64,000 nt of DNA. Origin: Agarophyton chilense. Lineage: Eukaryota > Rhodophyta > Florideophyceae > Gracilariales > Gracilariaceae. A program made the position numbers and the translations under genes. This document shows, one piece after another, positions 25,971 through 60,798 of this stretch. The DNA lies in assembly GCA_030374765.1 (NCBI GenBank), contig JARGXX010000021.1, positions 558,001 to 622,000 of the forward strand, written 5' to 3'. Numbering within the stretch: the first letter of the stretch is position 1; each line of letters begins with the position of its first letter. Under the pieces are notes generated by a model. It had not been told where the DNA came from and ran no database searches. It worked only from the letters and a program-made list of their open reading frames with translations.

Positions 25971-25979
25971 ACAAATCAA

Positions 25980-32751: not shown

Positions 32752-32766
32752 TATCCCCCCCCTTAA
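32752..32766 (-). other. polypurine tract
   Basis: On the minus strand TTAAGGGGGGGGATA lies directly before the 3' LTR. It is the expected primer for plus-strand DNA synthesis and fixes the orientation. Confidence 0.85.
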
Positions 32767-32798
32767 GACAGGGAGAACACCTCGAAGAGGAAGTCTGC

Positions 32799-34574: not shown

Positions 34575-34906
34575 CCGGAGCTTCCGGTAGAATGTAGGAC
34601 GGCGCCCCTAGGGCGCCCTTGCCAGTAGTGAGAAATAAAAGAAGAGGGTCGCCTTTCCGACGCCCTTTCCGAAGTCCACTTCTTTTTTTCCGGGGTACCG
34701 GCCTTCAACCGGGGTTCCGGCGTTCCAGGGAACGAGCCTAGCTGGGAGTCCCGTGTTTAACGGTGGGCGCTTCGCGCGCGGACCAGGTAACTGGCACGAC
34801 CACCAACGAGGTTGGGATAGCGTGAGCGGTTGCTTCCTTCCCCGCGTTGGGGCATGGACGGAGATGGCGCGTGGCGCCGTCAGCCATTCCATTCCGTGTT
34901 CACGAT

Positions 34907-39163: not shown

Positions 39164-40123
39164 CTACTGCTGTGCCTCCCCGGAGGTTTCTGCACCGGAT
39201 ACCGAGAGACCATCCTCGGTAGAGGGAGTTATTCCGAGTACTTTGGCAGCCGTCACCTTTGTAGGGAGCATCGCGAGCGGGTGCGGCGTCATAGACCCAA
39301 CGACTTGGTTCTTTGCCAGCGTCTGGGGAGCCTTTCCCAGATTGGCAACCAACACCCTGAAAGGAAAATTCGGCGTGACTTGCACGATTCCGTTCGCAAC
39401 GGTTAACTGAAATTTCTCGTACAACGAGGACAAGGGCTGAACAACCCGAAGACCGTGTTGACGGGATTTGACTGAAACCATAACCTGGCTCTCCGGGGGT
39501 ATGGTGACTGACGAGGCAACGCGTAGCTTCGTAGAATCCCGGTTCGCCGGTGTGGGTTTCTGCGCAGCAGGTAAAGGAACGTGTTTCCTCGATGCCCGCT
39601 TCAGCGGTTGACGAACAATGGGGACGGTCGATCCGTCCTCAAGTTCCACCTGCTTAAGGCGTGGGCGGATGGCGTCGACAAACCTGTCGCAGTAGTCACA
39701 TCCCAGTATAACTGGCGCGGCCAGCGAGTGGCACACAATAAAAGTTAGTTTAACCACCATCCGCCCTAGCCTGACGACCAGGTCGATCACACCAGCCGTT
39801 TTCAACGGGTTGTTATTGGCGTCTGACACGTCGGGTACCGTTTCAGAACGGATGAGTGACCGCAATGGCGGGGGTAAAACCGATTCCACAATAAAGTTCG
39901 GCCCAGCACCTGTATCCAGGACAGTGAGATGTCTCACCATAAACTGCGTGTGCAGACCAAGGTCAGCGTAAACCTTGTAGTTACGCTTGGCCATTACCAA
40001 GACTCTATCCGGGATCCGGTTATTTCTAATCCGTATCCACGGTCGACGCAACACACCGAGGTGTTTAGAGTCCGCGTCTGCGGTGTCCTTCCTTGTCAGG
40101 ATTTTCACCGGGGAGCGAGGCAT
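39164..40123 (-). CDS. retrotransposon aspartic protease
   Basis: The retropepsin-like domain shows the active-site VLDTGAGPNFIVES and the downstream ILGCDYCDRF hydrophobic-Gly motif, about 95 residues apart. The frame is open upstream past the gag stop (at least to 40,197), so it is probably reached by frameshift. The ATG at 40,123 is the first in frame. It ends at a TAG (39,164-39,166, context CAG TAG GCG), beyond which the same frame continues without a break into reverse transcriptase. Confidence 0.88.
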   Translation of the reverse strand: MPRSPVKILTRKDTADADSKHLGVLRRPWIRIRNNRIPDRVLVMAKRNYKVYADLGLHTQFMVRHLTVLDTGAGPNFIVESVLPPPLRSLIRSETVPDVSDANNNPLKTAGVIDLVVRLGRMVVKLTFIVCHSLAAPVILGCDYCDRFVDAIRPRLKQVELEDGSTVPIVRQPLKRASRKHVPLPAAQKPTPANRDSTKLRVASSVTIPPESQVMVSVKSRQHGLRVVQPLSSLYEKFQLTVANGIVQVTPNFPFRVLVANLGKAPQTLAKNQVVGSMTPHPLAMLPTKVTAAKVLGITPSTEDGLSVSGAETSGEAQQ

Positions 40124-40185
40124 CGGCGCCTCGGGCGTCGTCAGCCTCAACTCTGAGGACGCCTCTCCCGAAGTGGAGACTCCCT

Positions 40186-42297
40186 CTATTCTATTCCCTG
40201 TACAGGGTCCTGGTCGGGCGAAGGCCCGACTTCCTCTGCAACGAGTGCATGATTCCGTTGCACGGTAGCTACCGCAGGAGCGGGTTGAGATCCACCAGCG
40301 TGGTTTGGCGCTGGTGCGGCGCGTGCCGGCTGAGCCGGTTTGTACCGAGAATTCGGAGTGTGAGCCAATGCGTTGGGGAAGTCCGTCTTCGCGCGGAGAT
40401 ATGACGTGAGTGGCACGGAGCCCTTCTCCTGCGGGGAAAGGGCTTCGTAATTATCCACCACTCGCGCCATATCTCGTAGCGATAAAAGGCATTGCAGGGA
40501 GGTGTGCCCGCGCTCGTAGCACAAGTGGCACACCAACGTCACTCCCGCGTTTCGCGGTACGGAATTCCGAGCATCGGTGTATCTTCCGGGTTCCGGGTTT
40601 CCAACCCATCCAGGGCGCTGACTTCGTGTCATTCCGTTCGAGTACAGCATATGGGGGGCCGGAGTGCGGCGGTCATTAAGATAAAAGACCTGCCCGTTCT
40701 CCATGTCCCTTGCGGTTGAGTCAACCGAGCCATCCGTCGTAGACGGTAATTCCGTTGTCGGAATAGATAAACCATCGCGATGGATGACATTCATATTGTC
40801 ATAACCCTGTTTGGGGATGCCATCCGTCGCAAATGACGGTGAAGAAGAGTCTGACTCAAGCAGCAATGCTTTAGCGGCCTTCGACCGGGTTCCCGGATTG
40901 CGTGCACATAGTTCATCTCCCTCTGCGCGGGCAAACTGTACGAGTTCAAGGTATGTCACCTTCGGCTCTTGTTCCCTGTAACGGGCGACAAGAGTCTTGA
41001 TGGCTGGATCCAAGCCATCAATGAACATCGTACAGCGTTCCCCAGCGGGGTATACATTACCACAACGGTGGAGAGCCTTATTCAGGCGTACCGAGTAATC
41101 GGTCTCGAGCTCGCCGGAGCGTTGTCGAGTGTCTCCCAAAGCGAGTATCGCCGCTTGTATCGCGGAGTTGGTTGCGTAGGAACGCAGGAGGTACTGCACG
41201 GCCTCGGGCCAGCAGGTCACACCTCCTTCGGAGGCTCGCGACGAGCCCCGAACCGACAAAAACTGATCTTCAGCGACACCCCGTAGAAAGTAGGGTAGCG
41301 CCACGTAGGCTTGTCCTTCGTTCATTCCGAGTATATCGGCTTCCGCTACAAAGCGGTGTAGAAAATCCAAGACCAGAATTGGATCATCCCCAGTAAACGA
41401 CTGGTTACGAACTGAAAGCTGCATCCGCTTGATGCAGTCTTTCACTTTACCCGTGTCACGCGGTGTCCGACCTAAAGAGGAATCTTCTAGCCGGTAATAC
41501 CGGTAGGACAGGAATGTCCTGTACAGAGGGTTGGTTGGCTTCAAGGGTTTGAGGCCCGAATGTCGCCGACCCTTGGGGCGCGACCGGATGGCCCCGTAGG
41601 TGGCAGAGGACCGCTTTGAGCGGGAAGAGCGCCCATAACGATCCTGTGAGTCATCGCTCACCGACGAATCGGAACTCTCCGAGTCACTCGGTTTACCGTC
41701 CGACTCAGATGATGAGTCGGACGGGTGTCCGTGCTTACGGTTAGAATCCCGGTTCTTCCGGCTCTTCCGGTTCCGCGACTGGGTCTCTCGATGACAGACA
41801 ACTGGTCTAGCCGCGTTCGCGGGCGAAGTTAACGTCCTCTCGACCGACTCAAGTCGGCTTCGGAGACGCTCGAAGCGATTCTGCATACCTTCTGCGAAGG
41901 AAGACGGAGCGCCAGAACACTCGAGTAGTGTATTGACGTCCGACCGCAATACGCGGATATCCTCGGCTAACTCACTTGTAGGGGGGTTAGCGAGGCTTCC
42001 TCGTAAAGAGGTGAACTCCCTCGAGAGGGTATTGTGAGCAGCCCGCAGGGAGCGGAGCTGCTCTTCCAAGCGTACAATCCGCGTTTGGTCGACCAACCGC
42101 GGAGGCGGAGAAACCACCGTTGCGACGGTCGTTAACCCGGAATCGGGCTGCGGGTCTTCAGTGCCGGTGACCGGTATCTCCCGGGAATGGGGTGTTGGAG
42201 CCAGGGCCTGTGGAACATCAGTGCCCCTGGCATCACCGCTTTGGCGGGAACGGCTGCGTGTTGCAGGAGGCTCCATGCTAGGCGGTTTCCTTGGCAT
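40186..42297 (-). CDS. gag: retrotransposon gag
   Basis: This is 703 residues from the first ATG (42,297). A Ser/Arg/Asp-rich disordered region (about 160-260) precedes the capsid-like retrotransposon-gag domain (about 290-480, with FTGDDPILVLDFLHRF and YFLRGVAEDQF). A CCHC zinc knuckle of CX2CX4HX4C form (CHLCYERGHTSLQC) lies at about 593-606. It ends in TAG at 40,186-40,188. The protease frame is -1 relative to gag and open across the gag stop, so a -1 frameshift could make a gag-pro-pol fusion. No perfect heptamer slip site is visible at the junction (CAGGGAATAGAATAG). Confidence 0.92.
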   Translation of the reverse strand: MPRKPPSMEPPATRSRSRQSGDARGTDVPQALAPTPHSREIPVTGTEDPQPDSGLTTVATVVSPPPRLVDQTRIVRLEEQLRSLRAAHNTLSREFTSLRGSLANPPTSELAEDIRVLRSDVNTLLECSGAPSSFAEGMQNRFERLRSRLESVERTLTSPANAARPVVCHRETQSRNRKSRKNRDSNRKHGHPSDSSSESDGKPSDSESSDSSVSDDSQDRYGRSSRSKRSSATYGAIRSRPKGRRHSGLKPLKPTNPLYRTFLSYRYYRLEDSSLGRTPRDTGKVKDCIKRMQLSVRNQSFTGDDPILVLDFLHRFVAEADILGMNEGQAYVALPYFLRGVAEDQFLSVRGSSRASEGGVTCWPEAVQYLLRSYATNSAIQAAILALGDTRQRSGELETDYSVRLNKALHRCGNVYPAGERCTMFIDGLDPAIKTLVARYREQEPKVTYLELVQFARAEGDELCARNPGTRSKAAKALLLESDSSSPSFATDGIPKQGYDNMNVIHRDGLSIPTTELPSTTDGSVDSTARDMENGQVFYLNDRRTPAPHMLYSNGMTRSQRPGWVGNPEPGRYTDARNSVPRNAGVTLVCHLCYERGHTSLQCLLSLRDMARVVDNYEALSPQEKGSVPLTSYLRAKTDFPNALAHTPNSRYKPAQPARAAPAPNHAGGSQPAPAVATVQRNHALVAEEVGPSPDQDPVQGIE

Positions 42298-42389
42298 TGG
42301 CCACACCGTCTCGACGGAAGAATAGAAAGCAAACCGGTGAGACCGGAGAAAACCCGTTAAACGGAAACAACCTCAGAAAAGACACAAGC

Positions 42390-42418
42390 GGTCTTGACTT
42401 CTAAGTCGGGAGACCAAT
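42390..42418 (-). promoter_or_regulatory. primer-binding region with self-complementary hairpin
   Basis: Three bases inside the 5' LTR the minus strand reads TGGTCTCCCGACTTAGAAG. It starts TGG as a tRNA-primed site should. The same stretch folds on itself: GGTCT pairs with AGACC and GACTT with AAGTC around a two-base turn (42,390-42,415). I could not match the site confidently to a tRNA 3' end. Confidence 0.5.
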
Positions 42419-42419
42419 T

Positions 42420-43285
42420 TGTAGGACAATGCCTTCAAGAAGGAAAACCTACGAAGACGTCCAGATCTTCCTCTCACGAGGTAACCGGCGCGGTAGAGCC
42501 CTCCCAGGGATCGGCGCGAAATGCCGGGTGTAAGCCGGAGCCGAACCGTCGCGACGTGCGCAGGGAGGCTGAAAGAAGCCGAGAATATCCGCGTAATGCG
42601 GTGCTTGCGTATCCTCTGAGGAGGCAAAACCCACGAGAGTGGCGAGAGCGACAGGTGTCAGTGCGAGCCGCAAGAGCGGGAATTGCCCAATGAAAGGGAG
42701 GAAAAGGGAAGGAAAATGGGAAGGGAGGCAAGAGGGCGAGCTTGACCACGAGTCGCAAGAGGGGACTCGGGAATAGCCGGCACTGCCGGGTGTAGCAAAC
42801 CGTATACACGGGCGGAACCACGAAAGTGGGAATAGATACCCGACACACGAAGGCTGCTTGAACGTCCAAGGGGGTTGGGAAGCCGTGCACCACGGGAAAT
42901 CCCTCCGTAAGGAGTTGTATATCCGCGCAGGCGGTTCGACCCAGAGCCAAGATCTGGAAGACCAAGATCACCCTTGTTGGGCAGACTTTACTGGACCGGC
43001 GGCCGCGAGGCCGGCGGCCGAAGTACTGTAGTCCCCGTAGAATAGGATAAATAAAGTCTATCCTAAATAGCTAAATGTCCGTCTAATAAAAGGGGCCAAT
43101 CTGGCGGCCACGTGTCGCGCGGGCGCTGCGGCCACGTGTATGGCACCCGGTCCCGCCGGTGCATCACCGGCGTTCCGGCCATCGCCGTGAAAACGGATTA
43201 CTCCTACTCATAACGAGGTTGCACGCCAGAGGCTCCGGAAAAAACTTAATTCCCTAAAAACCTCCCTGGAGGACGTTGCTTTTCA
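42420..43285 (-). repeat. 5' LTR of the retrotransposon
   Basis: This is 866 bp and matches 31,886-32,751 with scattered substitutions, most densely in the first 20 bases. As the 5' LTR it should carry the promoter. Confidence 0.95.
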
Positions 43286-43824
43286 CCTGCGTTTGCACAT
43301 GCTTTATTGTAACAGTTTTGCTACACAACGTGGAGGCGTGCGTCGAGTGTGGCACTCAAAGGCGCTTGGTTTCAGCCACATCTCCGCTGCACAGTCGAGA
43401 TGTGTTGTAAGCTGGATAATGTGCGAAAATTTTATCAAAAGAAAGGGCTATGGTATGCGTTTGCGCTTGGTTCTGTGGCGATTTCGTGGAGGCGGTTGGC
43501 ACATTGTCAGGCGTTTTGTATGTGCGTTTTTGGGGTCGTGTACGCGACTAAAAAGGGTGCGTTTGCGCTTTGTTCTAGGATGGTTTCCATATCCGGCAAC
43601 ACTGGGGGCCGATATTGGTTGGTATTGTCAAGTTCAATGTAGGTTGAGTGTGATGAGTAGTAGGTCACGCGAGTGCTGGCGCCACACTCTCAGCTAAAGA
43701 AGATGCGTGCAGTGCGTTTAGTGAGGTAAGGATGACGTATGCTTAACGATGCCAGGTAGGGTCTTATGACGTTAAGCTTTGTCCAACAGTGCCATCGCCA
43801 CAAAGTAGCTATCGGTCAGGGCTT
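43286..43824. repeat. tandem repeat unit 3, right part
   Basis: It continues unit 3 after the retrotransposon. CCTGC at 43,286-43,290 duplicates 31,881-31,885. The sequence is nearly identical to 30,180-30,718 of unit 1. The telomere-like tract begins directly after it. Confidence 0.92.
43293..43697 (+). CDS. ORF within repeat unit 3, unknown
   Basis: This is the second copy of the ORF at 30,171-30,593, lying immediately right of the retrotransposon. The insertion removed or replaced its first residues, and the rest is collinear. Confidence 0.2.
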   Translation: MHMLYCNSFATQRGGVRRVWHSKALGFSHISAAQSRCVVSWIMCENFIKRKGYGMRLRLVLWRFRGGGWHIVRRFVCAFLGSCTRLKRVRLRFVLGWFPYPATLGADIGWYCQVQCRLSVMSSRSRECWRHTLS

Positions 43825-43828
43825 ACGG

Positions 43829-44125
43829 GAGTTTACGTTTTCGTAGAGGAAACCATTGTGTACGGGCTTTCACAGGTTTCAGGGGTTTAAGGGTTTTAGG
43901 GGAAGCTTTACCTGTATGGGATTTTGAATTTACGGAGAGGGGTTTAGGGGTTTTAGGGGTTTTAGAGGTTCAGGGGTTCAGGGGTTTAGGGGTTTTAGGG
44001 GAAACTTTACCTTTATGGGATTTTTTATTTACGTAGAGGAAAACATTGTTTAGGGGCTGGACGGCTTTAGGGGTTTTAGGGGAAACTTTACGTTTATTGG
44101 ATTTTAGGGGTTTTAGGAGTTTAGA
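43829..44125 (+). repeat. degenerate telomere-like tract (TTTAGGGG/TTTTAGGGG)
   Basis: GGGGTTTTAGGGG and GGGGTTTAGGGG words recur many times. They are embedded in a larger unit of roughly 110-130 bp containing TTTTAGGGGAAACTTTACCT and TACGTAGAGGAAAxCATTG, present about two and a half times. The G-rich strand is the plus strand. The tract starts immediately after repeat unit 3 and ends about 750 bp from the stop of the helicase gene. Confidence 0.8.
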
Positions 44126-44871
44126 GTCGAGACGTCAAGTTCCAGTATAGTACGAATGCGTGGTGTACAGATTGTTTGAGGGTGTACTCGATATCTGCGG
44201 TGGTTGTATAAAGTTCTGTTTTGAGCGACCTGCATTCGATAAGTGTACTGGGCTTTATGTGTGGGACTGATATAGAGAGTAGGTTGTTCCGTTAAACTGT
44301 ATTTTTGAGGCGGAGTTCGGGTATTTAGGGGCTGTGGGTGAGGTGGAGATAGAGACGTTTGAATAACGTTTGTTGCTGGATTAGGTGTAATGTAACGGTC
44401 GAATATGGGGTTTTTGGCGTTATACTTAAGTATAAAGAGGAGGAAATGTGTTTTTCTGTGGCAAGGAAGAGAGTTGAAAGCAAAATGGAGAAAGAAGAAT
44501 TGGTGTTTATTGTACCGGGTTGGAATCTAAAATCGTGCTAAAATGAGTGTTGTGGTTGACTTCCACCAAGCTGCAAGGCGTAGAATGTTGGGTACGGCAA
44601 AGTGGTTGTTGTGTGTTAACCAATCATGAAACATGGCGTCTGTTTCAAGGTGGGGGGGTGACGAATCTTGGGAGGATTGGGAAATGGAGTTGAACTTGGA
44701 TTGCATGCGTCCGTCAAAGAGGTGGAGTGCAGTTTCGGAGCGAGTTTTGGAGCATGTTCGCCACAAGACCCATGCCAGTTGATAGAGCGAAATGAAGATG
44801 CAGTGTCTTGTTCCAAATGTGTGCGGTTGAGAATGAGTTTTGAGTCCTTTGCACAATCCGAGATGGCATCG
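44126..44871. other. spacer downstream of the helicase gene
   Basis: No gene is recognised. The plus-strand ORF at 44,359-44,541 has no features. Part of the stretch next to the helicase stop is probably its 3' untranslated region. Confidence 0.4.
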
Positions 44872-47800
44872 TTAGCAGGTTTCTTGAGGTGATTTATCGA
44901 ACCTGCAGTTGCGCGATATATGGTGCGGCGAAAAGCATCTGAAGCATCGTTGACGAGAATGCGGGCATGCATGATTGTCCGTCAAGTGCACTTGCGTTTT
45001 TTCGTGCAGCAAGCACGACACACAGAGAGCGGCAAGTCGGTGAGAGAGCTCCTCGAAGTGTGACACGATTTGTTGCGGTGTTTTTCGTTCCAAGGTGTAA
45101 AAGAAGGTGGCAGAGTGGGACTGAGATTGAGAAGGAGCGACAGTGGGGGATTGGGTCGCAGCGGATGGATGCGTGGTTGTCAGCAACGGCGATGGAGTGG
45201 AGGTGGGGGGTCGTGGTGGACGACTGGCGTTGGGTTTGGGGCTTTGTGTTGTACCGCCGTTGTTGTTGGTGTTTTGGTTGTTTAAGGATGTTCCGTTTGA
45301 TTGATTGGGACCGTTTTTTGGCGGTGTGGGCGTTTGTGGGGAAGCGCTGGGTGGCGGTGAAATGGATTGGGCGTGCTGAGAGGCAGAAGGGGTAGCGGAA
45401 ACGGAGCTTCGTTCTGGGGTGGGAGAGGGGGAGACAGCTGCGATGCTATTGCAAATATCGCAATTACGAACCGAAGGAGAGAAGAGACAGATGCTTGGTT
45501 CTTTTTCGTCCATGTGGAAATAGAGGGCGTTCCTTCGACAAACAGATTTGCAGTCGACCCAATGCTGCGCTTCCAACCACCGCTCCGTGGAAAGTGCTTG
45601 GTTGTATATGCGATCGGGCTCTTCAAACGCATTTGTGTTGAATGAGGACGAAGAAAGAGTTTCCGTGACGAGTTTGAAGTAGGGCTTGAAGTAAATGGTG
45701 ACGCAACTGGATGGGTTTCTATCGCGGCCGGCCCTGCCAGCCTGTTGCGCGAGGTCGCAAAGACTCGCTACTCCACTAAAGTTGAAAACCAGGCGAAAGT
45801 TGGGAACGTCGATACCCGTACCAAAAGAAGAGGTGCAAACCATAAAGAGAATGTGGTTGGTTGTTGGTGCGCTGGAAGAAGGCGGAGAGTTCCAAAGGGT
45901 GTGAGCCCGGCGTTTACGAACATCGGAGAGACCAGAATGGTACAGGAGACCCGTGACAGTAGTGGATTCTTTAAGGGCACCAAAAGAAGAACGCGAAGCG
46001 GCGAGAGCTTCATGGACAGCTTCGGCAGCCGGGCGTGTTAACGAGAATATAAGAACGCGAGCTAGGGTTGTGTCAGCCGACGAGTGAAGCAATCGAGCCA
46101 CATGCTCTTGCATGATTGAGACGCCCAGCTGAAGCAGGTATCCAAACACATGCTGAAAGTGGCCATGAGCGGCGCGAAAGCGTGTGGCACGCGAAGTGGT
46201 GGGGGCTGAGCTTAGGTGATACACGACAAAAGAAATATTGTTTCTTGCAGTCGAAGAAGCGTACACATGCGCGTTTGGGATGTGCAGCTGCGACAGAAGG
46301 AGGGGGCGGTCGCGCGGCGGCACTGTCGCGCTTAAAAGCACGCGAGGGATCTTTGTGGGAATGTGGCCGAAGCAGTTGTGGAGGTTGGCCAAGCAGGGGC
46401 AAAAGTGTTGCCACAAAAGAAACAAGTGACATTCATCGATGGCAATGCGGGCGAGGCGGTCGGCGGCGATCAGTCGCGTGGTGAACTCTGTAAAAGAAGG
46501 AAGAGAAAGTCTTTCGGCGGAAAAGATGTAAATGTCGGCAAAGGAGTGCGATCCGGGAGGGGTGGGTGTACGAGAAGCACGAAGGCCGAAGAGCTGAGCG
46601 CGCAGTTCGTATTCACTGAGAAAGGCTGTGAGAGGGGTGATGAGAACGGTGGAGTATTTTCCCTTTTCCATGAAGACGGGGAGCAGAAGAGATAGTGTTT
46701 TTCCAGATCCAGTCGGCTGGAGTAGTAGCATGTTGGAAAGCCTGTTGTACACGGCCGCCGTGTTCACAAATTGTTGGTGGGACTTGAATAAAGCGGAGTC
46801 GTTGGAAATTGCCTGTCTTAGTGCTCGGAGCATTTCTGATGTAATATGTTCGTAGGTCACAAGCGGTTGTTGTAAGAGAGAAGCTCCCCCGCGCGGTATG
46901 GCGGCTGCCATAAAAGCAGGTGGATGTGGATTGAAAGGATGAGAGGCCGCCAGGTTTAGGTTGATTTGAGAATGGGGGATCGCAGAGCGGTCAGTGGGAG
47001 GGGACGGGGTTGGTTGCGATGTATGGATGGAGCGCTTTGGTTCAGGTGTAGGTAGAACTGTGTCAGTAACCGGACGTTTTCTGTGGTGTTGTTGTTGTTG
47101 TTGGGTGAGGGGAGCATTAAGAAGAAGACCGAGATACTGGTGCCATTTGCTGGACCACTCGCGATATTTGGAAAGTTGAGAGTGCTGCAAACCGGATATG
47201 TCATGTGGTGTACGAGCGTAAAGAAAAGCGGCGGTGTGCGCAGAGTGGCCCGCCTGGCCATGGGAAGTGGTCAATAGCTCTTCCAAGATGATATCGGCTA
47301 CAGAAGATGCGGTGACATTAGAAACTGTGTTGGTCATTCCCACGGTGAAGTTTCTATAGTCGTTGAAGGATATCGGGAAACCGCGTTTGCTCAAGTGAGA
47401 GCTGATAATCGAGCGGATGGTGTTTGTGGCATACGGAATTCCGCAGTTGGCGAACAGCATTTTCCAATGCATCTGGAAACAGTTTTCCCCGTGCAGTCGG
47501 TGTACGATATATGCTTCAAACGGACGTATGACAGTCAAGTACATGAGCAGAAGACGGGATGTTTGGGCATCGGGAAAGCGAGCAATCGGAGTGGCGGCCC
47601 CTTTGCTGTTTCGTGTTTTCATGTAACGGCAAATGAGAACAGGCGATTTGTCGATGAGCATGAAACAACGTTGAAAGGGTTGGTCGTTGTGTATACGGTA
47701 TGTCTCAATCTTTGTGCCGCGCGCAGGAGAGCCCGACGAAAGGTGTAGCGCAACCAACAGGCGTTCTTTGATTTCCTGCGCACATGAGAGCCACCTCGAC

Positions 47801-49245
47801 AACGCATGGGTGAACATATCGGTGCCGAAAATGTCGGTTGTGGGCAGTTGGGTGCGGGGAAAGGTACCGTTTTGCTTCCGTTGCGGAAGAAACGGAGTGC
47901 GGTCGGTGTTGGAGTTGTGGGGCACGGAAGACGTGAGACAAGTGAAAACGAAAGCCATGTTTTGTTCGATAAACGGGCGGTTGTTGAGTTTGGTAAGGAA
48001 AGAAAAGCCTGCGCTTTTGTTGAAAGAGTCGTCCTGAAGTGAGTGTAGCGCGTTTGTGAAACCGGTTGGCAGAGCGTGGCCAAGAAGCAGGTCATTGTGA
48101 AGAGTGTGTTGTATTTCTTTGTGTAGAGTTAAAACCAAAGAGCCGACTTCTGAGAGGGCGAGGTGAATGTCACGCACTATGCCGCAGGACGGGTGAACAT
48201 CACAGTTGTGGAAAGAAACGAACATTTCCTCGCGAGAGGATATGGACATTGCAAGCGTGAGTGTCTTTCTGACAAACGAAAGTGCGCTGTTGGAATCAGC
48301 GTCGATTGCCGCGTAGATGGTACGCATGCGTTCTTGAACGTGAACTGTGCGTTCGGAAGCAGGGGTGGCAGGTTGCAACAGGGGAGAAGATTTGGAGAGC
48401 ACGTGCAGTTCGTGTATGGCGGAAGCACAGATGCCATATTGAAGAGCGGCGAGGAGGTGCGTCACATCCGAGGCGGCTGCAAAACGAAAGGAGGTATTGT
48501 TGGGGTCGTGAGAAATGACCGTGGCGTAAGGCTCAGGCGTGCAGTCAGACGGCAAGGGGGCAGCGATAGGCGGGTTGGGGTCGGTGCTTATCACGCTTGC
48601 GCAAGCAATGAAGTTGCGAACGGAGAGGAGATCTAAAGACTGGTATGGCGCTAAAGATTGAAGCAAGAAAGGCTTGAGAGCGCTATGGACCGCTGTGCCA
48701 TGTTGGGTTGGAGGAAACGGGGCGGGGAGCTCATCGGAGGAAGACATGCGAATGGCATCCAACACGGAAGTAGTGTAGCAGTACATGAGGTCTGAGTCGG
48801 GTACGAGATGAGGGAGGTTTGCCCTTGTCCTGTGAGTAAACACAAGCAAACGGGAAATGTGTGAAGCGTAACGCTTGCGGGTTTCAGTGGAGACAGTTTT
48901 AAAAGCTGTGTCCGTGCGCTTGTTGAGGCGGTCCAAGAAAGCCAGGGAGGTCTTACTAACCAAAATGTTCACCTGAGAGAGGTAGTCGAAGATGTGGTGG
49001 GTGATGGTGCTTTCAGCGGATGTGGGCGTTGTGCCAGTTCTGGATAGTTGAGCCGCCACATCCAGATGAACATGAAGCGAGTGAAGAACGATGTCAAACT
49101 TGGAAAAGGTGATGAAAGAATTCTTCTCAGAGTGGTGACGAAGCAAAGGGTCTGATTGCGAACAAGGAGCGCCGGTGTTGAACTTTTGTAAAAAGTGGTT
49201 AATGTGTTGAAGCGGGGGCTCAATGCCTTTGGCAGTCGTTGCCAC
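44872..49245 (-). CDS. tyrosine-recombinase-like + RecQ helicase protein (C-terminal 1457 residues)
   Basis: Residues 470-720 resemble a tyrosine recombinase catalytic domain: Arg509 in SGSPARGTKIE, Arg631 in NDYRNFTVGM, and QAGHSAHTAAFLYART with His667 and Tyr676. The His-to-Tyr spacing of nine matches the GHSxxxTxxxY box of integrases. Only the HxxR His is replaced (Asn628). Residues 820-1270 are a RecQ helicase: LLQPTGSGKT (842-850), DECH (937-940), SAT (972-974), SSFGTGIDVPNF (about 1139-1150), QQAGRAGRD (1167-1175) and a Cys-rich zinc site (CRRNALYF to NCDIC, 1236-1265). A Ser/Pro/Thr linker leads to a CCHC knuckle (Cys1434, Cys1437, His1442, Cys1447). The frame starts with GTG, not ATG. 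It joins the upstream C2H2 ORF if one base of the G8 run at 49,283-49,290 is removed, giving about 1,730 residues. The architecture recalls fungal telomere-linked helicases. Confidence 0.85.
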   Translation of the reverse strand: MATTAKGIEPPLQHINHFLQKFNTGAPCSQSDPLLRHHSEKNSFITFSKFDIVLHSLHVHLDVAAQLSRTGTTPTSAESTITHHIFDYLSQVNILVSKTSLAFLDRLNKRTDTAFKTVSTETRKRYASHISRLLVFTHRTRANLPHLVPDSDLMYCYTTSVLDAIRMSSSDELPAPFPPTQHGTAVHSALKPFLLQSLAPYQSLDLLSVRNFIACASVISTDPNPPIAAPLPSDCTPEPYATVISHDPNNTSFRFAAASDVTHLLAALQYGICASAIHELHVLSKSSPLLQPATPASERTVHVQERMRTIYAAIDADSNSALSFVRKTLTLAMSISSREEMFVSFHNCDVHPSCGIVRDIHLALSEVGSLVLTLHKEIQHTLHNDLLLGHALPTGFTNALHSLQDDSFNKSAGFSFLTKLNNRPFIEQNMAFVFTCLTSSVPHNSNTDRTPFLPQRKQNGTFPRTQLPTTDIFGTDMFTHALSRWLSCAQEIKERLLVALHLSSGSPARGTKIETYRIHNDQPFQRCFMLIDKSPVLICRYMKTRNSKGAATPIARFPDAQTSRLLLMYLTVIRPFEAYIVHRLHGENCFQMHWKMLFANCGIPYATNTIRSIISSHLSKRGFPISFNDYRNFTVGMTNTVSNVTASSVADIILEELLTTSHGQAGHSAHTAAFLYARTPHDISGLQHSQLSKYREWSSKWHQYLGLLLNAPLTQQQQQHHRKRPVTDTVLPTPEPKRSIHTSQPTPSPPTDRSAIPHSQINLNLAASHPFNPHPPAFMAAAIPRGGASLLQQPLVTYEHITSEMLRALRQAISNDSALFKSHQQFVNTAAVYNRLSNMLLLQPTGSGKTLSLLLPVFMEKGKYSTVLITPLTAFLSEYELRAQLFGLRASRTPTPPGSHSFADIYIFSAERLSLPSFTEFTTRLIAADRLARIAIDECHLFLLWQHFCPCLANLHNCFGHIPTKIPRVLLSATVPPRDRPLLLSQLHIPNAHVYASSTARNNISFVVYHLSSAPTTSRATRFRAAHGHFQHVFGYLLQLGVSIMQEHVARLLHSSADTTLARVLIFSLTRPAAEAVHEALAASRSSFGALKESTTVTGLLYHSGLSDVRKRRAHTLWNSPPSSSAPTTNHILFMVCTSSFGTGIDVPNFRLVFNFSGVASLCDLAQQAGRAGRDRNPSSCVTIYFKPYFKLVTETLSSSSFNTNAFEEPDRIYNQALSTERWLEAQHWVDCKSVCRRNALYFHMDEKEPSICLFSPSVRNCDICNSIAAVSPSPTPERSSVSATPSASQHAQSISPPPSASPQTPTPPKNGPNQSNGTSLNNQNTNNNGGTTQSPKPNASRPPRPPTSTPSPLLTTTHPSAATQSPTVAPSQSQSHSATFFYTLERKTPQQIVSHFEELSHRLAALCVSCLLHEKTQVHLTDNHACPHSRQRCFRCFSPHHISRNCRFDKSPQETC

Positions 49246-50077
49246 TGGACGATGGGGTGGTTGGAGACAAACAGGCTGCGCCGGGGGGGGTCTGAGGCCG
49301 TGCCGCAGGCACCTGCGGAACCTGGAAATTTTTGGACAAGCAGCCTATGGGTTGAGCATTGGTAACGGGGAATAAACGGCGACGAACGCCGCCGTACACT
49401 GTCTGCAAGGCAATACGGCCCGACCAGACGGTACGGTCAAGGTGCGGATGGGCACCCGCAGGCGACATGTTGTGGCATTCGATCAGATGCGTTTGCAGAC
49501 GAACGGGGTCGAGGTAGCAGAATTTGCAGAGCGGGCACTGATAGCCATTGTGAATGGCAATGTGTGCCAGGGGCGTGAGGAACGTAGAGGGCCCGGACAC
49601 AAATTGAGCGTTGTGGTAGGGGCGATACTTTTGCCACACGGGGGCAACGGTAGAGTTGTTGCGCAAGGTGTGCACCTCGTGCAGGATTGCCGTTGACATG
49701 GGACGTGCAATTTCCAAAGGGATGGAGTGCTGTTTGCGCAGGTGATGTTGGATTGCGCGAGCAGACGGCAGCCCACACTGGCAGTTGACGCACAATGGAA
49801 AGAACCCAATAGAATGAATACCCATATTCACAATGGTACCGAGTGACATGATAAAATAGGAAGAATCGTCGGCTGCATTCGCGTCAGTAACGGGTAAGTC
49901 GGAATGGGGTTGAGCATGGGCGTCACGCGCCACGGGCGGAGGCGGTGGGGGGAGCAGTGGATTAGGGGGAGTGGGCGGTGAGATGTTCACCGCAGCCTTC
50001 GGTGGGCTGTGCACCGAAGAGTGGATGAACACGGGCAAGCCATGTTCGCCGGCAGAGGATAAGCTGTTTTGCGACAT
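49220..50077 (-). CDS. C2H2 zinc-finger N-terminal part of the RecQ protein
   Basis: The frame begins at the ATG at 50,077 (MSQNSLSSAGEHG), although it is open slightly further upstream. After a Pro-rich stretch come two zinc fingers. The first is LCVNCQCGLPSARAIQHH with a following LRKQH. The second is YQCPLCKFCYLDPVRLQT followed by HLIECH, spaced CX2CX12HX4H. This pair resembles the N-terminal Cys/His module (OrsD/DUF3505-like) that precedes RecQ in fungal helicase proteins, a comparison made from memory. The frame overlaps the helicase frame by 26 bases and shifts relative to it by +1. Eight consecutive Cs on the coding strand lie just before the overlap, so this is most simply one gene with a one-base indel. 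Programmed slippage or a sequencing error is possible. Confidence 0.75.
   Translation of the reverse strand: MSQNSLSSAGEHGLPVFIHSSVHSPPKAAVNISPPTPPNPLLPPPPPPVARDAHAQPHSDLPVTDANAADDSSYFIMSLGTIVNMGIHSIGFFPLCVNCQCGLPSARAIQHHLRKQHSIPLEIARPMSTAILHEVHTLRNNSTVAPVWQKYRPYHNAQFVSGPSTFLTPLAHIAIHNGYQCPLCKFCYLDPVRLQTHLIECHNMSPAGAHPHLDRTVWSGRIALQTVYGGVRRRLFPVTNAQPIGCLSKNFQVPQVPAARPQTPPGAACLSPTTPSSSGNDCQRH
49283..49290 (-). other. C8 homopolymer (coding strand), frameshift point
   Basis: Read with seven Cs instead of eight, the zinc-finger frame runs directly into the helicase frame through AQPVCLQPPHRPVATTAKG, with no stop. Confidence 0.7.
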
Positions 50078-51047
50078 AACTGAACGTGTAAGAGAGAGAA
50101 GAAGACGCTTGGGAGGATTGTTTTTGAAGACCCAAAGAAAGACACACACAAACAAACACAAATGAGTCAAGGAGCAACAGCGAAATGGACGGGTTCACTG
50201 CCGATGTAGCAGAATAAGTAGTAAACAGGTGGGGCGAGGGTAATTGGAGAAAGGCGGTTTGGTGTTTTGGGGGAGGGCGCGTGTGGCTGGCTCGAGCAAA
50301 CGGCTTACTGTAAAAGGGAACCAACACGATAATATGTGGTATTGCAGGTCATTCATTCCCGGTGTATGACTGTGGGGTTGTGGGGAGGAGTGTGTCACAA
50401 TAAAGCGCATTGGCCTCCGCCCCATTGAGGAGAGTGATTTTGTGTAAGGGGCGTGGTTTGCGTGCAGGGGGGGAGCGGGATGGGGAAAAAGGGCAGCGCA
50501 GAGAAGAGATGGGGCTGCGCGGTGGTGCAGTCGGGTTGGGAGAGGGCAGAAGTTTTAAGGGTGGGTTCGTATTTGTGTGTAAATGGACGGAGGTTTAGAA
50601 CGAGCTGGCGTGCGATCGGGTGCGCCAGCGGATGTTGTGCGGCAATGTGGCAACTTGTTGTGAAGCATGACGTTTTCGGAACGGCTAACTAGTGGCGGTG
50701 GTGGCGTATCGTACACATGTATCAGTTTGAGCACAAGCGGTGCTGCACCGCGCTTGAGCTCATATATGCATATGCGACATGTTTGACGGTTGATTTTGGA
50801 AAAATGGTGCTACATGTGACGTGAGTAGGAGGGGTGCTATGTGTTACACTATGCGCACTGTGTAACGTTATGATTGTGTTTGGCAAAAGAAGTGAGATGT
50901 TGCGGGGCGTGGCACTGGGGGCCGAAGAAGAAGGTTATAGGTTTTTATGTTTTTAAAACGAATGAAGGAAGAGATTTTGCGCGTGGTTGTTCTTAGGAGA
51001 GAAGGTTTAGTTTTTAGTTTTGTTTTACTGAGAAAGAAAAGAAACAA
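50078..51047. other. intergenic region between methyltransferase-SET and zinc-finger-RecQ genes
   Basis: About 970 bp without a recognised gene. It should hold the promoter of the C2H2-RecQ gene (minus strand) and the 3' end of the methyltransferase-SET gene. Plus-strand ORFs here are short and Arg/Gly-rich. Confidence 0.5.
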
Positions 51048-54000
51048 CTAATCTACAAGATTCACATGAAAGGTGTGTGTTTGTGGTTTTGGAACCCTGG
51101 GCCAATGATTGTAGTCGTTGCCATAGTCTATTAGCACTTCTTCTTTTCTCTCAATGATTCGGGTGGCCACTATTGTGATAAGGTGGTAGTCTTGGATTCC
51201 TGACTTTGAGTTTTTCAAAGTAGACGAAAGGCGCGCTACTACATTTGGTGTGCGAGGGTTTGGGAGTACCTTGTCCCGTAAGGCCTGAATGTCGAGGTTC
51301 TCTGGGCGGTATTGGGCATCATTGATGATTCCGCCAACACAGAACGGGGCAGGCGTGATCCACATGGAGTGGGTTCCACGGTCTCCCGGGGTGGGCAGTC
51401 TGACAAAGTCCGGACCTGTCACTCGGATTTCCATGGAAGTGGAGTTGACGCGCTCCACGGTGACGTCGAGCAGACCGTTGGCATACGAAGACTGTGTGGC
51501 GGAGCGTTTGGAGAGGTCGTGGTAGACTAGGGTTCCATAAAAGTAGCACACGGTGTCGCCTTCATTAAACTGGCGTGCGGCAAAGACACCGTCTCCCGCC
51601 AAGGGGTGTCGGATGTCGGACTTTTTTGTATACACTCCATGGGCATACCCTTCTATGGCAAGTAACGTAGCCGGATCGATCTGAGTGAGAAGGCCCTGTT
51701 TCTCTCGCGGCCATTCATGCACCGGTTTAGTGCGGCAAACGGCTGCAAGCTCACGTTCTTTCCACAAGTTGCAGAGAAAGGAAGCGAGCGGCGCAGGAAA
51801 AATTTGGTACTGTGGCAGACCAGGAGGCGCGGTCCAAAGGTATTTCGATCGCAGGTCTTTGTTCGGTAGTGAGCGAACTAGGCGATTGAACTTGGCGATG
51901 AGATGGTGCGGCACTTCAATGTCGGTCCTGTTCTGTAAAACGGTTTTGATAAAGTGAACGAAAGCATTGTGTTTTGCGTGAGCGTAACACACTGCGTCTT
52001 TCTCGCACCCCAAAAAGCGTCTGTGACCTGGGAGCTCCATGCACGCCAAAGCGGTGGAACCCGTTCCGGCAAATAAATCCACCACCATGTCGCCAGGCTG
52101 AGAATAGCGGCTTATGAGTTCCTTGAGTAGAGCACGACTCTTCTGCTCCGGGCGTAATTTTTCAGTGACAGCGTTGTGATTGTTGGTGACAGAATGCAGG
52201 CGATTCCAACGCAGGGTCTCGCCAGCGGCTAGTCCCGGCACGTTATCAATCACGTTCTTGTAAGCCGGGTAGCGAGATGGAACGTAGTTGTAGTTGACGA
52301 GGTTTACGCGAGCCAGGTTTTCATCGTGAGTGAGCCCCGTTTTGATGCCGTGAATGGCATACTCGGTGATGGGCAACGGCGACGTTCGCAGCCCGCGGTG
52401 GCTCCCAGTAGGATGGGAGGCGGCGCGGACGAAAACCAACGGCACAGGGTCCACCTTGAACAGCGCAGTTTGGGACTCGGAAATGCTCTTGAAGCACGAC
52501 AACCACGGCCTGAACTGGCGAATGGAGCAAAAGAGAATAAAGTGGCCGCCAGGGCACAACAGCTCGCCAATAACCTGCGCCGTGCGCTTCATATCGTCTT
52601 GGGAAATGGCGTCGTGGAGGCGGTTGTGGCGGTCAGCTAAGGAACGAATGTTGTAGGGCGGGTCGGTGAGGACGAGTTGCACTGCTCCGACTGGAGATGA
52701 GGCGGTAGTTCGTTTGATAATATCCACCTGTACGAATTCTTTGAAATCGACACCGTAGAGGCGAATATGCTTTTCCATTTCGTCCTCTGCCTCTTGTAAA
52801 GCGTTGAGAGTGGTAGTTTGGGTGAAGGAGTGCGGCGGGAGGACGCGAGTTTCGTTGACGTTGTAGGGAAGATTTGGGGGTTCGGGAGGAGGTGAGGGAC
52901 CAGCGGCGTTGGCGCGTTCCGACGACGACGGTAGTGGCGCTCCAGGATCAGGCGGAGGTTGCTGCTGTGACTCGTTCATAATGATGTCCACCAACTCGGC
53001 TTCTTTTTTGGCTATCTCCACGACCGGGTTGAGGGGTTGGCCCGGAATAGGGCCGACCATAGCCATCCGATTCGGGGTCCAAAGTGGCAGACCGAACTTC
53101 GTGAAGCGGTGAGGGTACACGTCGACGGTCGAGTTATACTCGAACTGCGTCAAAGATTGCCAGCGAGTGGTTTCATCCATTTCGTATAGAAAGTCGTTGA
53201 ACAGCAGGCGGTGAAAGTCGTTCAAAAACTCGGAAGCTAGCACGCGTAGATTGCGGTCAACCTCGTCGGTGTGGGACCAGGCGACGCTGTCCACTTCAGA
53301 TTGGACTTTGGAAGGCTGTGCCTCCTTGGTAAATGTGGTAGTTTGCGATAACGGGGTGTAGCCTTCCTCGCGGCGTTCGAGAGCGTGGTAGGTTAGGGTG
53401 TTGCTGTCGAACAAGATGTACGGAGCGAGCATGTGCTCCAGTGAGTCATACCCAAGATGGCGGCAGAACACATTCCAAGAGGTCACAAGCTTGTGCACGA
53501 CAAATGAAATTCGCTCGCACGTTTCGTGCTTAAAGTTTTGCAACGAAGGCAACAAAGAGGTCGCGGTTGCAACGCCGGTATTGAGGCGTTGTTTCTTGGT
53601 CTGGCGCGATTTGAGTTTCTCGCGTTTGAGAGTGTAGATCATCGAAAGGTACAAAACCATTTCAAAACGAGATGCCTCAACGGTAGTGGAGAATCGTGAG
53701 CGACTGTCCTTGGAAGTTTGCGACTGCGGATGCACAATGCTCGATTTGAGGAAGGACGACAAGAGAGCCGTTTTCGGAATGAGCAAGTCGACCTGACGGC
53801 TGGGGCGGCGGCGATTTGTAGGCGCATTGGAAGAACGAGCACTTGCACGGGTGGTACCATTACCAGCAGCAGAAGACGGTTGCTGCTCAGAAGTATTGCT
53901 TGAAGCTTGGATTTGGAGGTAGAGCTGGTACAAGTCCCTGAGACGCCGGTCGTTGCAACCATTGTCGAGGTCTACACATCTGGCCATGAGGTACACCTGA

Positions 54001-54245
54001 GAGAAGTAGTTGTTTTTGAGGAGGCTGTGTTGTATCTCCTTGTTGGTGTACTTGCCGTGCTTTTCAGATGGCACGACCAAGGAGCAAACTTCCTCTGCAG
54101 CTGGCACAGAGCCTCGGTTCTGAACTGCGAAGTAGACCAAGTCCAGGTACTGGAGCGCGCGGGCGTTGGGATCATCGGGGCGCATGCGGGCGTACGCGTC
54201 GCGCAGCGGCAAGAACAAACCAATGAGACCTTCGGTGGTGACCAT
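51048..54245 (-). CDS. DNA methyltransferase (beta class) fused to SET domain
   Basis: This is 1,065 residues from the ATG at 54,245 (MVTTEGLIGL). The frame is open for 153 codons further up but has no ATG there. Residues 505-770 carry a SAM-dependent amino-DNA methyltransferase in beta order: VLTDPPYN (catalytic DPPY, 528-531) precedes VVDLFAGTGSTALAC (SAM motif, 722-735). DPPY enzymes make N6-methyladenine or N4-methylcytosine. Residues 880-1050 are a SET domain: GDGVFAARQFNEGDTVCYFY, INDAQYRPEN in place of the usual NHS motif, and EEVLIDYGNDYN. SET domains methylate lysine, usually on histones. The N-terminal 500 residues are helical and unrecognised. The gene lies head-to-tail behind the C2H2-RecQ gene on the same strand and has no stop or frameshift, which argues for recent function. 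Target base and protein substrate are unknown. Confidence 0.85.
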   Translation of the reverse strand: MVTTEGLIGLFLPLRDAYARMRPDDPNARALQYLDLVYFAVQNRGSVPAAEEVCSLVVPSEKHGKYTNKEIQHSLLKNNYFSQVYLMARCVDLDNGCNDRRLRDLYQLYLQIQASSNTSEQQPSSAAGNGTTRASARSSNAPTNRRRPSRQVDLLIPKTALLSSFLKSSIVHPQSQTSKDSRSRFSTTVEASRFEMVLYLSMIYTLKREKLKSRQTKKQRLNTGVATATSLLPSLQNFKHETCERISFVVHKLVTSWNVFCRHLGYDSLEHMLAPYILFDSNTLTYHALERREEGYTPLSQTTTFTKEAQPSKVQSEVDSVAWSHTDEVDRNLRVLASEFLNDFHRLLFNDFLYEMDETTRWQSLTQFEYNSTVDVYPHRFTKFGLPLWTPNRMAMVGPIPGQPLNPVVEIAKKEAELVDIIMNESQQQPPPDPGAPLPSSSERANAAGPSPPPEPPNLPYNVNETRVLPPHSFTQTTTLNALQEAEDEMEKHIRLYGVDFKEFVQVDIIKRTTASSPVGAVQLVLTDPPYNIRSLADRHNRLHDAISQDDMKRTAQVIGELLCPGGHFILFCSIRQFRPWLSCFKSISESQTALFKVDPVPLVFVRAASHPTGSHRGLRTSPLPITEYAIHGIKTGLTHDENLARVNLVNYNYVPSRYPAYKNVIDNVPGLAAGETLRWNRLHSVTNNHNAVTEKLRPEQKSRALLKELISRYSQPGDMVVDLFAGTGSTALACMELPGHRRFLGCEKDAVCYAHAKHNAFVHFIKTVLQNRTDIEVPHHLIAKFNRLVRSLPNKDLRSKYLWTAPPGLPQYQIFPAPLASFLCNLWKERELAAVCRTKPVHEWPREKQGLLTQIDPATLLAIEGYAHGVYTKKSDIRHPLAGDGVFAARQFNEGDTVCYFYGTLVYHDLSKRSATQSSYANGLLDVTVERVNSTSMEIRVTGPDFVRLPTPGDRGTHSMWITPAPFCVGGIINDAQYRPENLDIQALRDKVLPNPRTPNVVARLSSTLKNSKSGIQDYHLITIVATRIIERKEEVLIDYGNDYNHWPRVPKPQTHTFHVNLVD

Positions 54246-54690
54246 CTTGTAAGACGGAACTTGGAGAGATATTCGAAGTGTCGGTGGAGAAGGCGGTTGG
54301 GGGGAGACAGAGAGGTAGAAGGGGGGGTTATTGAACGAAGAGAGACTTGTTCTTTTGAAGGGGAATTCGAGGGCTGTAGTTGTGCACGGGCATCTTGATT
54401 GAAGGGGTCGTGGGTTCGTTTGGTTCAAAGAGCGGGGCCGTTTAGGGGTTTGCGCAATGGTTAGGTCTTGGGCTTTAGCGGGTGCGTGTACGTCAAAGCC
54501 GTTCTTGATCGTAACTCGATACCGCAAGGGGCGCAAGAATCCAAAACAAGAAACACCGCTAAAACAACGACAAAGTTTCGAAAGGAGAACGTTGCAAAGC
54601 GGAGAGGACTGCAGAAGAGCGATAGCCGACAGCTCAAATACGGTCGGGGTCGGTTTACGTGCGATGCAGTTTGGGGGAGCAAAAGGGGGA
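54246..54690. promoter_or_regulatory. upstream region of the methyltransferase-SET gene
   Basis: This is the 445 bp between the start codon and the hairpin repeat. The frame is open but Pro/Ser/Phe-rich with no ATG, so I take it as 5' untranslated and promoter DNA. No specific motif is claimed. Confidence 0.35.
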
Positions 54691-55350
54691 TTGCCTCCAG
54701 GCAATAAATTTCAACTGCGAATTACGGCTCATAATTTGCACCCCGATTGTTGATTTGCATTATTTTTTCGCACTTTCGGGGTGCAAATTATGAGACGTAA
54801 TTCGCAGTTGACCAAAAGTGCCCGCAGGCAATTTCACTCAATGTGAGCAAACTCGTTTCCCTCCTACCAGGCGCCGTACCAAGGCCATAGCTGTTCTATA
54901 GAGCCGATTCCCATGCCTGTGTCTCCCTCTAACGGCTTTATACCGGCGGTAACGAAGGTTATTGAACCGGTTGGGGCTGAACGTCTTTTCTAGCGGCGGC
55001 CAACCTTAGACTACCACAGGGGAATAGTGTCGAATGTGAATGGTGAACGAGCTCGCGTAAACGATGTCGACAGACATGTTTGTGGAAAGACATGTTTTGG
55101 TGCACTTCCGAGAGTTAGTAGCATCTGTATAGAGAGGAGAGTGGTGAGAAAATTTGGTTTTCTACAGTACTTGGTTGATATTAAAAAGTTGAATGAATAT
55201 TAGTTGTGACACGGTGCAGTGGAGAAGAAGCGCTGTTTTCGAGTGAAGGGGTTTAGTGAAACATCATTAGGCTTTCGGTTTTTGCAATGGCGCTCGAGAG
55301 GGGTCTACATAGACGTATGCGAGAGACGAGGGGTGTGGTGAGAGTTTAGG
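54691..55350. repeat. 660-bp direct repeat, copy 1, with hairpin
   Basis: This copy and copy 2 are offset by 774 bp and share GCAATAAATTTCAACTGCG, CTCGTTTCCCTCCTACCAGG, CTAGCGGCGGCCAACCTTAG and GTGCAGTGGAGAAGAAGCGC in order. Near the start lies an inverted repeat: arms 54,712-54,746 and 54,776-54,810 (35 bp, one mismatch), loop 29 bases. Confidence 0.9.
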
Positions 55351-55464
55351 AATGTGGCGCAAATTTAGGGAGAGGCGTGTGGGCGAAGGCGAAAAACGGA
55401 GTCTGGGGGGCCCAGGGGGGTGTTGTTGGATGTGGGCAGACGTAGTCAAAAAGGGCGATTGGGA

Positions 55465-56124
55465 TCGCCTGCAGGCAATAAATTTCAACTGCGAATTACG
55501 GCTCATAATTTGCACCCCGATTGTTGATTTGCATTATTATTTCGCACTTTCAGTGTGCAAATTATGAGCCGTAATTCGCAGTTGACCAAAAGTGCCCGCA
55601 GGCAATTTCACTCAATGTGAGCAAACTCGTTTCCCTCCTACCAGGCGCCGTACCAAGGCCATAGCTGCTCTATAGAGCCGATTTCCATGCCTGTGTCTCC
55701 CTCTAACGGCTTTATACCGGCGTTAACGAAAGATATCGAACCGGTTGGGGCCGAACGCCCTTTCTAGCGGCGGCCAACCTTAGACTACCACAGGTGAATA
55801 GATTCGAATGTGAATGGTGAACGAGCTCGCGTAAAGGGTGTCGACAGACATGTTTGTGGAAAGACATGTTTTGGTGCACTTCCGAGAATTATTGGCATCT
55901 GTATAGAGAGGAGAGTGGTGAGAAAGTTTGGTTTTTTAGAGTACTTGGTTGAAATCGAAAAGTTGAATGTATATTACTTGTGACACGGTGCAGTGGAGAA
56001 GAAGCGCTGTGCGCGAGTGAAGCGGTTTAGTGAAACATCATTAGGCTTTTGGTTTTACAATGACGCTTGTAATGGGTCTAAACAGGCGTATGCGAGATAT
56101 GAGGGGTGTGGTGAGAGTTTAGGA
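55465..56124. repeat. 660-bp direct repeat, copy 2, with hairpin
   Basis: The hairpin arms are at 55,486-55,520 and about 55,552-55,584. About 30 bp are perfectly paired at the base and the arm ends have diverged. This copy runs directly into the second telomere-like tract. A 114-bp unrelated spacer separates the two copies. Confidence 0.9.
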
Positions 56125-56680
56125 AGGGGTTAAAGGGTTTAGGGGTTTTAGGGGTTTAGGGTTCTTTCTACTATAAATATAGGGGTTGTTTTTCGGTTTA
56201 AGTGCGGTTTTCGTATTGTTTTACGCGGTTTTAGGAATTTGGAATCAGTTTTTCGAAGGAGAACGCGAAACCGGGAAATGTGTTTGACGAGGTTTTTTGT
56301 GTTTTCTATGTTTTGTAGAGAGTCGTTCTTGGTTTAAGGGTTTTTCAAGGTTTTAAGATTGGGTTTAAAAGGTTTCCCATGATTTTCATGGTTTTCAGGG
56401 GTTTTAGGATAGAAGCAATTGTGTTTTCCTGGTTTTATAGGTTTTCATAAGGATTGACGAAACTCGAGAATATATTTTTGAGGTTTAAAGGGTTTTTATT
56501 TTGGTTTTTAGGGTTTTATCGGATTTACGGTTTTAGAAATACAAGGTTTTATCGGTTTAAGGGGTTTTCATCTGGAGTTTCAGGGGTGCATCGGTTTTAC
56601 GGAATGAGAAATACCTGGGTTTACGGGGTTTTACTCGTTTTTCCCGGTTGTTTCCTGTTTTATACAGGATTCAGAAGATG
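56117..56680 (+). repeat. second degenerate telomere-like tract
   Basis: It starts with GGGTTTAGGGGTTTTAGGGG and another GTTTAGGG, then decays through GGTTTAAGGGTTTTT, GGTTTTAAGATTGGG, GGGGTTTTAGG and GGGTTTTTA words to about 56.68 kb. The G-rich strand is again the plus strand, the same orientation as the tract at 43.8 kb. Confidence 0.7.
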
Positions 56681-58290: not shown

Positions 58291-58299
58291 AAGCTTTCA

Positions 58300-60759: not shown

Positions 60760-60798
<39 letters not shown>

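Follow-up and report, generated by a model that had tools for sequence, protein, structure and literature searches.

What does a telomere-linked helicase (TLH) do at the end of a chromosome? They have long been known from the chromosome ends of fungi, and we know of no settled function for them. The stretch analysed here, a window of 64,000 nucleotides from the red alga Agarophyton chilense (assembly GCA_030374765.1, contig JARGXX010000021.1, forward-strand positions 558,001 to 622,000), gives this question a specific form: upstream of its RecQ motor, the TLH encoded there carries a domain that, judged from its sequence, is very probably homologous to tyrosine recombinases (YRs). The TLH gene and an adjoining gene for a DNA N6-methyltransferase (MTase) fused to a SET domain form a subtelomeric element, and TLHs may drive mobile elements from which chromosome ends are built.

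The YR-like domain spans approximately residues 461-705 (47131-47865, reverse strand), limits that derive from alignments, hhalign and the Pfam match of a homologue, P0004. It is located in an open reading frame (ORF) of 1457 aa (44872-49245, reverse strand), defined by the ORF list, Pfam and comparison of copies, that also provides the residue numbering, with codon 1 at 49245. An initial annotation, made from the DNA letters without database searches, had suggested a recombinase from two arginines and a His-to-Tyr box. Codons checked in the window ORF place all four residues at the motifs it named, with the nine residues it counted from His to Tyr: Arg509 in SGSPARGTKIE (47719-47721), Arg631 in NDYRNF (47353-47355), and His667 (47245-47247) and Tyr676 (47218-47220) in QAGHSAHTAAFLYAR, all on the reverse strand. 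Lys543 in RYMKT (47617-47619, same strand), absent from that list of residues, is conserved as well and aligns with K235 of lambda Int.

Conservation was evaluated among homologues and among genomic copies. Since the window region, used by itself as a protein query, gave no homologue, a named relative was reached only through a family B of divergent paralogues in the same genome, L036 (1846 aa) and the broken L037. The search with L036 identified the 'ATP-dependent DNA helicase tlh2' of Gracilariopsis chorda (37% identity, E 7.5e-239), which is 34% identical to the window region, and P0002. A profile of three sequences then retrieved 17 proteins, among them P0003, P0004 and P0005; alignments were built using these three and P0017 from the 17, P0017 being dropped afterwards for want of the YR region. 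Arg509, Lys543, Arg631 and Tyr676 are invariant in the nine rows of alignment A3, where His667 occurs in eight, and they account for four of the 17 invariant columns of alignment A4 (seven TLH proteins), where His667 occurs in six. The expected conservation of the Arg/Arg/His/Tyr set therefore holds fully for both arginines and the tyrosine, and for the histidine with one exception, P0002, which has Arg. All 20 genomic copies examined, the window copy counted among them, retain R, R, H and Y, and 19 retain K (Asn in L018).

Direct profile evidence for homology comes from P0004, which matches Pfam Phage_integrase (PF00589) with an E-value of 3.4e-4 as a whole protein and of 7.6e-6 as a 237-residue piece. 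The match covers profile positions 8-167 of 172 and reaches 26.2 bits, 0.9 bits short of the cut-off of 27.1. Profile searches proposed by the initial annotation thus recovered RecQ and OrsD in the window, Phage_integrase in P0004 as the only one of the seven proteins, and no Crypton domain. Membership of the Cryptons, whose YR domain is DUF3504 and is included in Pfam, was considered and rejected, the Pfam-A scans giving no DUF3504 match. The best matches in PHROGs (0.0051, a one-member family of unknown function) and NCBIfam (0.058) were of no use, PADLOC matched the helicase and the MTase only, and scans of viral contigs gave no TLH relatives.

More sensitive comparison was performed by means of hhalign against 15 YRs: lambda Int, Cre, one Cre-like recombinase, nine phage integrases, the unannotated phage stretch L203 and two YR genes of the same genome. 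A sixteenth control, the Cre-like L201, was excluded for its poor translation. In local mode A4 scored 33.1 (E 2.4e-4, probability 44%), a value reached by none of 100 column shuffles, of which the highest scored 18.6, nor by the reversed alignment (11.6); in global mode the E-value was 2.4e-5 and the probability 50%. A check of every column, made in two alignment modes, shows that the Arg/Lys/Arg/His/Tyr columns fall on R212, K235, R311, H333 and Y342 of lambda Int, which we take to be its catalytic residues, and H308, the first histidine of the lambda HxxR motif, pairs with a Gln of P0004. The score does not depend on P0004, without which it is 33.8 (49%); P0002 and P0005 together form the strongest subset (36.4, 68%), and single sequences score 14-25.

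Several of these tests weigh against the recombinase reading. The window protein, L036, P0001, P0002, P0003 and P0005, six of the seven members, lack a Pfam integrase match; the hhalign probabilities of the full set are moderate (44-50%); the three red-algal rows alone score 18.2 (1%), which lies within the shuffle range and is not significant; and a profile of the YR region run against the PDB yielded two matches (E 0.27 and 2.1), of which none is a recombinase. The missing Pfam matches and the red-algal score are what would be expected if the R/K/R/H/Y pattern were a coincidence in an unrelated domain. This we consider very improbable in view of the P0004 match, the five residues in register at a score above every shuffle, and the scores of only 11-14 that four control regions of the same TLH proteins obtained against the YRs. 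Because of the invariance in A4 and an hhalign score above all shuffles and the reversed alignment, the pattern is not regarded as chance. The recombinase reading of the initial annotation is hence strengthened by the conserved R/K/R/Y, the integrase match of P0004, the register of the two profiles and the unmatched control regions.

Catalytic activity of the domain appears slightly more probable than inactivity, and the TLH protein may be able to cut and join DNA. Counting against this, the first position of HxxR is occupied not by a conserved His but by Asn in the window and by N, L, G, Q or S in the homologues of A4, and the histidine of the GHS box is replaced by Arg in P0002. The HxxR His is not an absolute requirement, the control phage integrase of Mannheimia (RDMR) being without it too. 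Both substitutions would fit a domesticated, non-catalytic DNA-binding module in proteins whose genes spread by homologous recombination or break-induced replication, as yeast Y' elements do, with the helicase assisting. We hold that explanation to be unlikely: seven proteins share R, K, R and Y without exception, and the YR domain of family A is as constrained as the helicase. The ratio of nonsynonymous to synonymous polymorphism (pN/pS), determined between the window and four of ten mapped copies, is 0.28-0.31 for the YR part and 0.30-0.35 for RecQ. The L036/L037 pair of family B points the other way, showing weak constraint (0.67 for YR, 0.57 for RecQ and 0.99 for the N-terminal part).

The domain is part of a larger protein that can be read only in part from the window, in which the gene is broken twice, by a frameshift between an OrsD ORF and the YR-RecQ ORF and by an early stop at 44872, where copy L002 continues for about 110 residues. 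The N-terminal ORF (49220-50170, reverse strand) contains the C2H2 pair, matched by Pfam OrsD (1.7e-7) at 49472-49795, and overlaps the YR-RecQ ORF at 49220-49245 in a different frame; the ATG at 50077 is the start that the initial annotation had used for it. The RecQ motor (45721-46740, reverse strand) is composed of DEAD and Helicase_C domains (Pfam 4.8e-10 and 3.3e-8), its closest solved relatives by sequence being RecQ, BLM and RECQ5. A codon check located the C-terminal CCHC knuckle, CX2CX4HX4C, at 44905-44946 on the reverse strand, and its spacing recurs in L036 as seen by eye. Both zinc-binding regions had been correctly noted before. The proposal of a single protein fails for the window copy, with its two ORFs, and holds for 15 of the 20 copies, in which a single frame of 1878-1880 codons runs from stop to stop; the other five are shorter. 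OrsD is in frame with YR-RecQ in L002 and, by frame length, in 14 further copies. Intact copies encode a single polypeptide in which OrsD-type C2H2 zinc fingers are followed by the YR domain, the RecQ motor and, last, the CCHC knuckle. Its placement with the telomere-linked helicases, made in the initial annotation, is confirmed by tlh2 of G. chorda as the closest named relative of paralogue L036 and by copies at contig ends. A RecQ-type motor, an OrsD region in the same protein, multiple terminal copies in one orientation and a named relative were all found.

The second gene of the element lies at 51048-54704 on the reverse strand and encodes a DNA N6/N4-methyltransferase (51984-52682, Pfam 1.5e-16) fused to a SET domain (51120-51596, 5.8e-5), with DpnA and CcrM as PDB relatives. 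Among the matches listed, 19 of the 20 TLH copies have an MTase match in the same orientation no more than 2 kb away; the remaining copy, C90, is truncated close to the start of its contig and has partial MTase sequence there. The genome searched comprises 79.8 Mb in 135 contigs and contains at least 32 TLH copies of 95-100% identity. Its phycobiliprotein genes, with 14 of the 15 matches listed on contig C39, and the red-algal origin of the nearest named TLH agree with a red-algal host, and on these grounds a fungal host was considered and rejected. Eighteen of the 20 examined lie on contigs longer than 100 kb, and every one of these reads away from the nearer contig end; the remaining two, on short contigs, are ambiguous in orientation. 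One copy at C4:1.10 Mb, degraded and interrupted by stops, is at odds with this order: the nearer contig end is about 660 kb away, and the copy points toward it. Simple end addition would account for it only if contig C4 were a fusion. The degraded TLH/MTase sequence covers C4:1098464-1102399 and has a copy of a second repeat family, described below, nearby, so that the site may mark an old chromosome fusion or a misassembly.

Comparison of copies revealed a precise centromere-proximal end, beginning CTATATATATTACAGG, with 12 occurrences in the 30 sequences scanned. These are preceded by nine different contexts, one common to three occurrences at slightly different positions, one to two, and seven found once. 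The terminal 172 bases have at least 40 full-length matches at 100% in the genome. At window position 29861 the fixed end is joined to arm DNA with a single genome match among the matches listed; at the C13 junction it abuts a dispersed repeat present, among the matches listed, at 13 other places with 86-90% identity; at C33 it abuts the start region of a family-B TLH, and further junctions are internal sites of the element itself. Distal ends are variable, and two truncated copies (L031 and L035) pass directly into telomere repeats, TTTAGGGG/TTTTAGGGG. The fixed proximal end and the variable distal ends resemble serial addition to chromosome ends.

Spread by recombination, as supposed for a non-catalytic module, would find homology for exchange in telomere-like repeats located by a repeat scan both within the element (43823-44124, forward strand, TTTAGGGG type in G-strand orientation) and in an interstitial array at its distal edge (56126-56165, forward strand). 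The fixed-end tandem array at C98:1476908-1481069, six copies at a constant step of 798 bases, likewise resembles a recombination product. Recombination alone leaves unexplained that one precise end is joined to unrelated sequences.

The same geometry brings in copying through RNA, in which telomerase or a trans-acting reverse transcriptase would use the 3' end of the chromosome as primer and begin copying at the transcript's 3' end, as with HeT-A or the Terminons, with YR-RecQ as an accessory. A fixed 3' end with 5' truncation is a signature of reverse transcription, and the element shows both on its sense strand: the end that stays constant is the 3' one, and copies are shortened from the 5' side. 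The sense strand near the fixed end also folds better than its shuffles as RNA (z -2.9, with 1 of 200 as stable; as DNA z -2.3). Against such copying, the ORF list and Pfam show no reverse transcriptase gene in the two-gene unit, the genome not having been searched for trans-acting ones, and the very end of the element has neither poly(A) nor a telomere-complementary tail. The Gypsy-type long terminal repeat (LTR) retrotransposon inside the element (31886-43285, reverse strand) is a separate insertion with its own 5-bp target duplication, CCTGC; its LTRs, at 31886-32751 and 42420-43285, are 96.7% identical. We judge RNA copying to be less probable still than the spread of a non-catalytic module by recombination. 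Position 43286, tried as an end of the element, was rejected as the edge of the Gypsy insertion, the real end being about 320 bp further according to comparison with other copies.

The explanation that we favour, and to which we give an even chance, is that the OrsD-YR-RecQ-CCHC protein is the recombinase of a telomere-capping mobile element, a role suggested by its domains and by the arrangement of the copies. Zinc fingers and knuckle would bind the element end and a single-stranded or telomeric end, and RecQ would open the chromosome end. The YR tyrosine would then cut the element terminus and pass it to the chromosome end, giving a new element in fixed orientation, while erosion and telomerase healing would shorten the distal side ahead of the next addition. 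YR chemistry can act on DNA ends, as in the YR-related telomere resolvases. A difficulty is that YRs normally make two defined junctions whereas one fixed end is seen, and that the pattern also suits reverse transcription. A wider proposal, which is more doubtful and is put forward tentatively, is that OrsD-RecQ TLHs generally would serve as recombinases for a separate class of mobile elements, present in red algae and other eukaryotes alike, in which YR chemistry is used to build chromosome ends, with YR-RecQ both joining and unwinding the terminus.

Known systems share parts of this arrangement. Lambda Int, Cre and phage integrases have the same order of R, K, R, H and Y, in register with lambda Int; unlike in these, the YR domain is here fused to RecQ, OrsD and CCHC, the HxxR His is not conserved and no second defined end was seen. 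HeT-A and TART are similar in their 3'-end attachment at chromosome ends, 5' truncation and head-to-tail arrays, and HeT-A itself encodes no reverse transcriptase. Terminons share these three properties according to the accessible part of their description (PMC6431247). The red-algal element differs from HeT-A/TART and the Terminons as a two-gene unit without reverse transcriptase. We know of no YR domain in yeast Y' elements. In the accessible text these are subtelomeric, encode a helicase and spread between chromosome ends (PMC4522978); the red-algal element differs in having a sharply defined end that is joined to unrelated sequence.

The closest parallels are the fungal TLHs (Magnaporthe, Ustilago UTASa/b, S. 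pombe tlh1) and telomere-associated transposable elements of Colletotrichum, which, in the portions of the sources available, likewise combine OrsD (DUF3505) with a helicase at subtelomeric positions. The accessible passages on Colletotrichum higginsianum describe helicase and DUF3505 domains, one orientation and internal telomere repeats (PMC5576322), and those on Ustilago name OrsD (PMC10532341). In the present case the host is a red alga, an MTase-SET gene accompanies the TLH, and a YR domain is recognised that those passages leave unmentioned. The accessible parts of PMC3212892, PMC10532341, PMC4522978, PMC7473861 and PMC5576322 do not report a recombinase inside a TLH, and PMC4522978, as far as available, treats RecQ and Cryptons separately. 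Passages retrieved for tyrosine recombinase, RecQ and subtelomere were unrelated, and full-text literature, a scope in which subscription papers are mostly absent, gave no match that joins a telomere-linked helicase with a tyrosine recombinase. Similar motifs may occur in fungal OrsD-RecQ proteins. If a conserved YR domain holds true family-wide, TLHs become candidate transposases, with DNA cutting and unwinding fused in one protein, and chromosome ends would be lengthened by mobile DNA free of reverse transcriptase. The old puzzle of the TLHs then becomes a direct question, whether Tyr676 forms a covalent bond with DNA and is needed for the addition of elements.

Within the window, unique arm DNA is taken to end and the subtelomere to begin at 29861, since two element fragments, the gene-bearing copy and then repeat DNA beyond 56125 follow from there. 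By copy comparison, a first, distally truncated element with its fixed end on arm DNA occupies 29861-30718, a second fragment, beginning with the fixed end, 30719-31564, and the fixed end (CTATATATATTACAGG...) of the third, gene-bearing element 31565-31885, which resumes at 43286 (all forward strand). The distal (5') region of this element, at 54687-56125 on the forward strand, consists of repeats of 0.74-0.93 kb, as determined by repeat comparison. Its repeat units contain an imperfect inverted repeat with arms of about 34 bases, seen by eye at 54710-54815 and 55480-55580. The strands of the element are asymmetric, the telomere G-strand side being G-rich: GC skew is 0.28 over 43286-56125, 0.40 and 0.43 in two non-coding parts and 0.21 in the distal repeats, and only 0.04 over 20000-29860.

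Other elements occur nearby. The part of the window at 56700-64000 belongs to the second subtelomeric repeat family, of which 56700-57700 is present in at least ten copies, the window included, that are 94-100% identical. Two of its ORFs (58467-59549 and 59565-60848) correspond to an 869-codon frame in four of nine other copies among the matches listed; their C-terminal half has, by eye, a Crypton/DIRS-type YR look and no Pfam match. The same family carries a C48 peptidase ORF at 62147-62914 (E 5e-4). A third subtelomeric ORF, of 1230 aa and in opposite orientation, was encountered at L021:3310-7002; it has no Pfam or PDB match, and an HxD...H pattern seen by eye is like that of 2-oxoglutarate dioxygenases. 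Other YR genes that match Phage_integrase, at C95:241538 and C121:216551, are probably separate elements. In the arm part of the window, a Tc1/mariner-type transposase ORF is found at 20662-21831.

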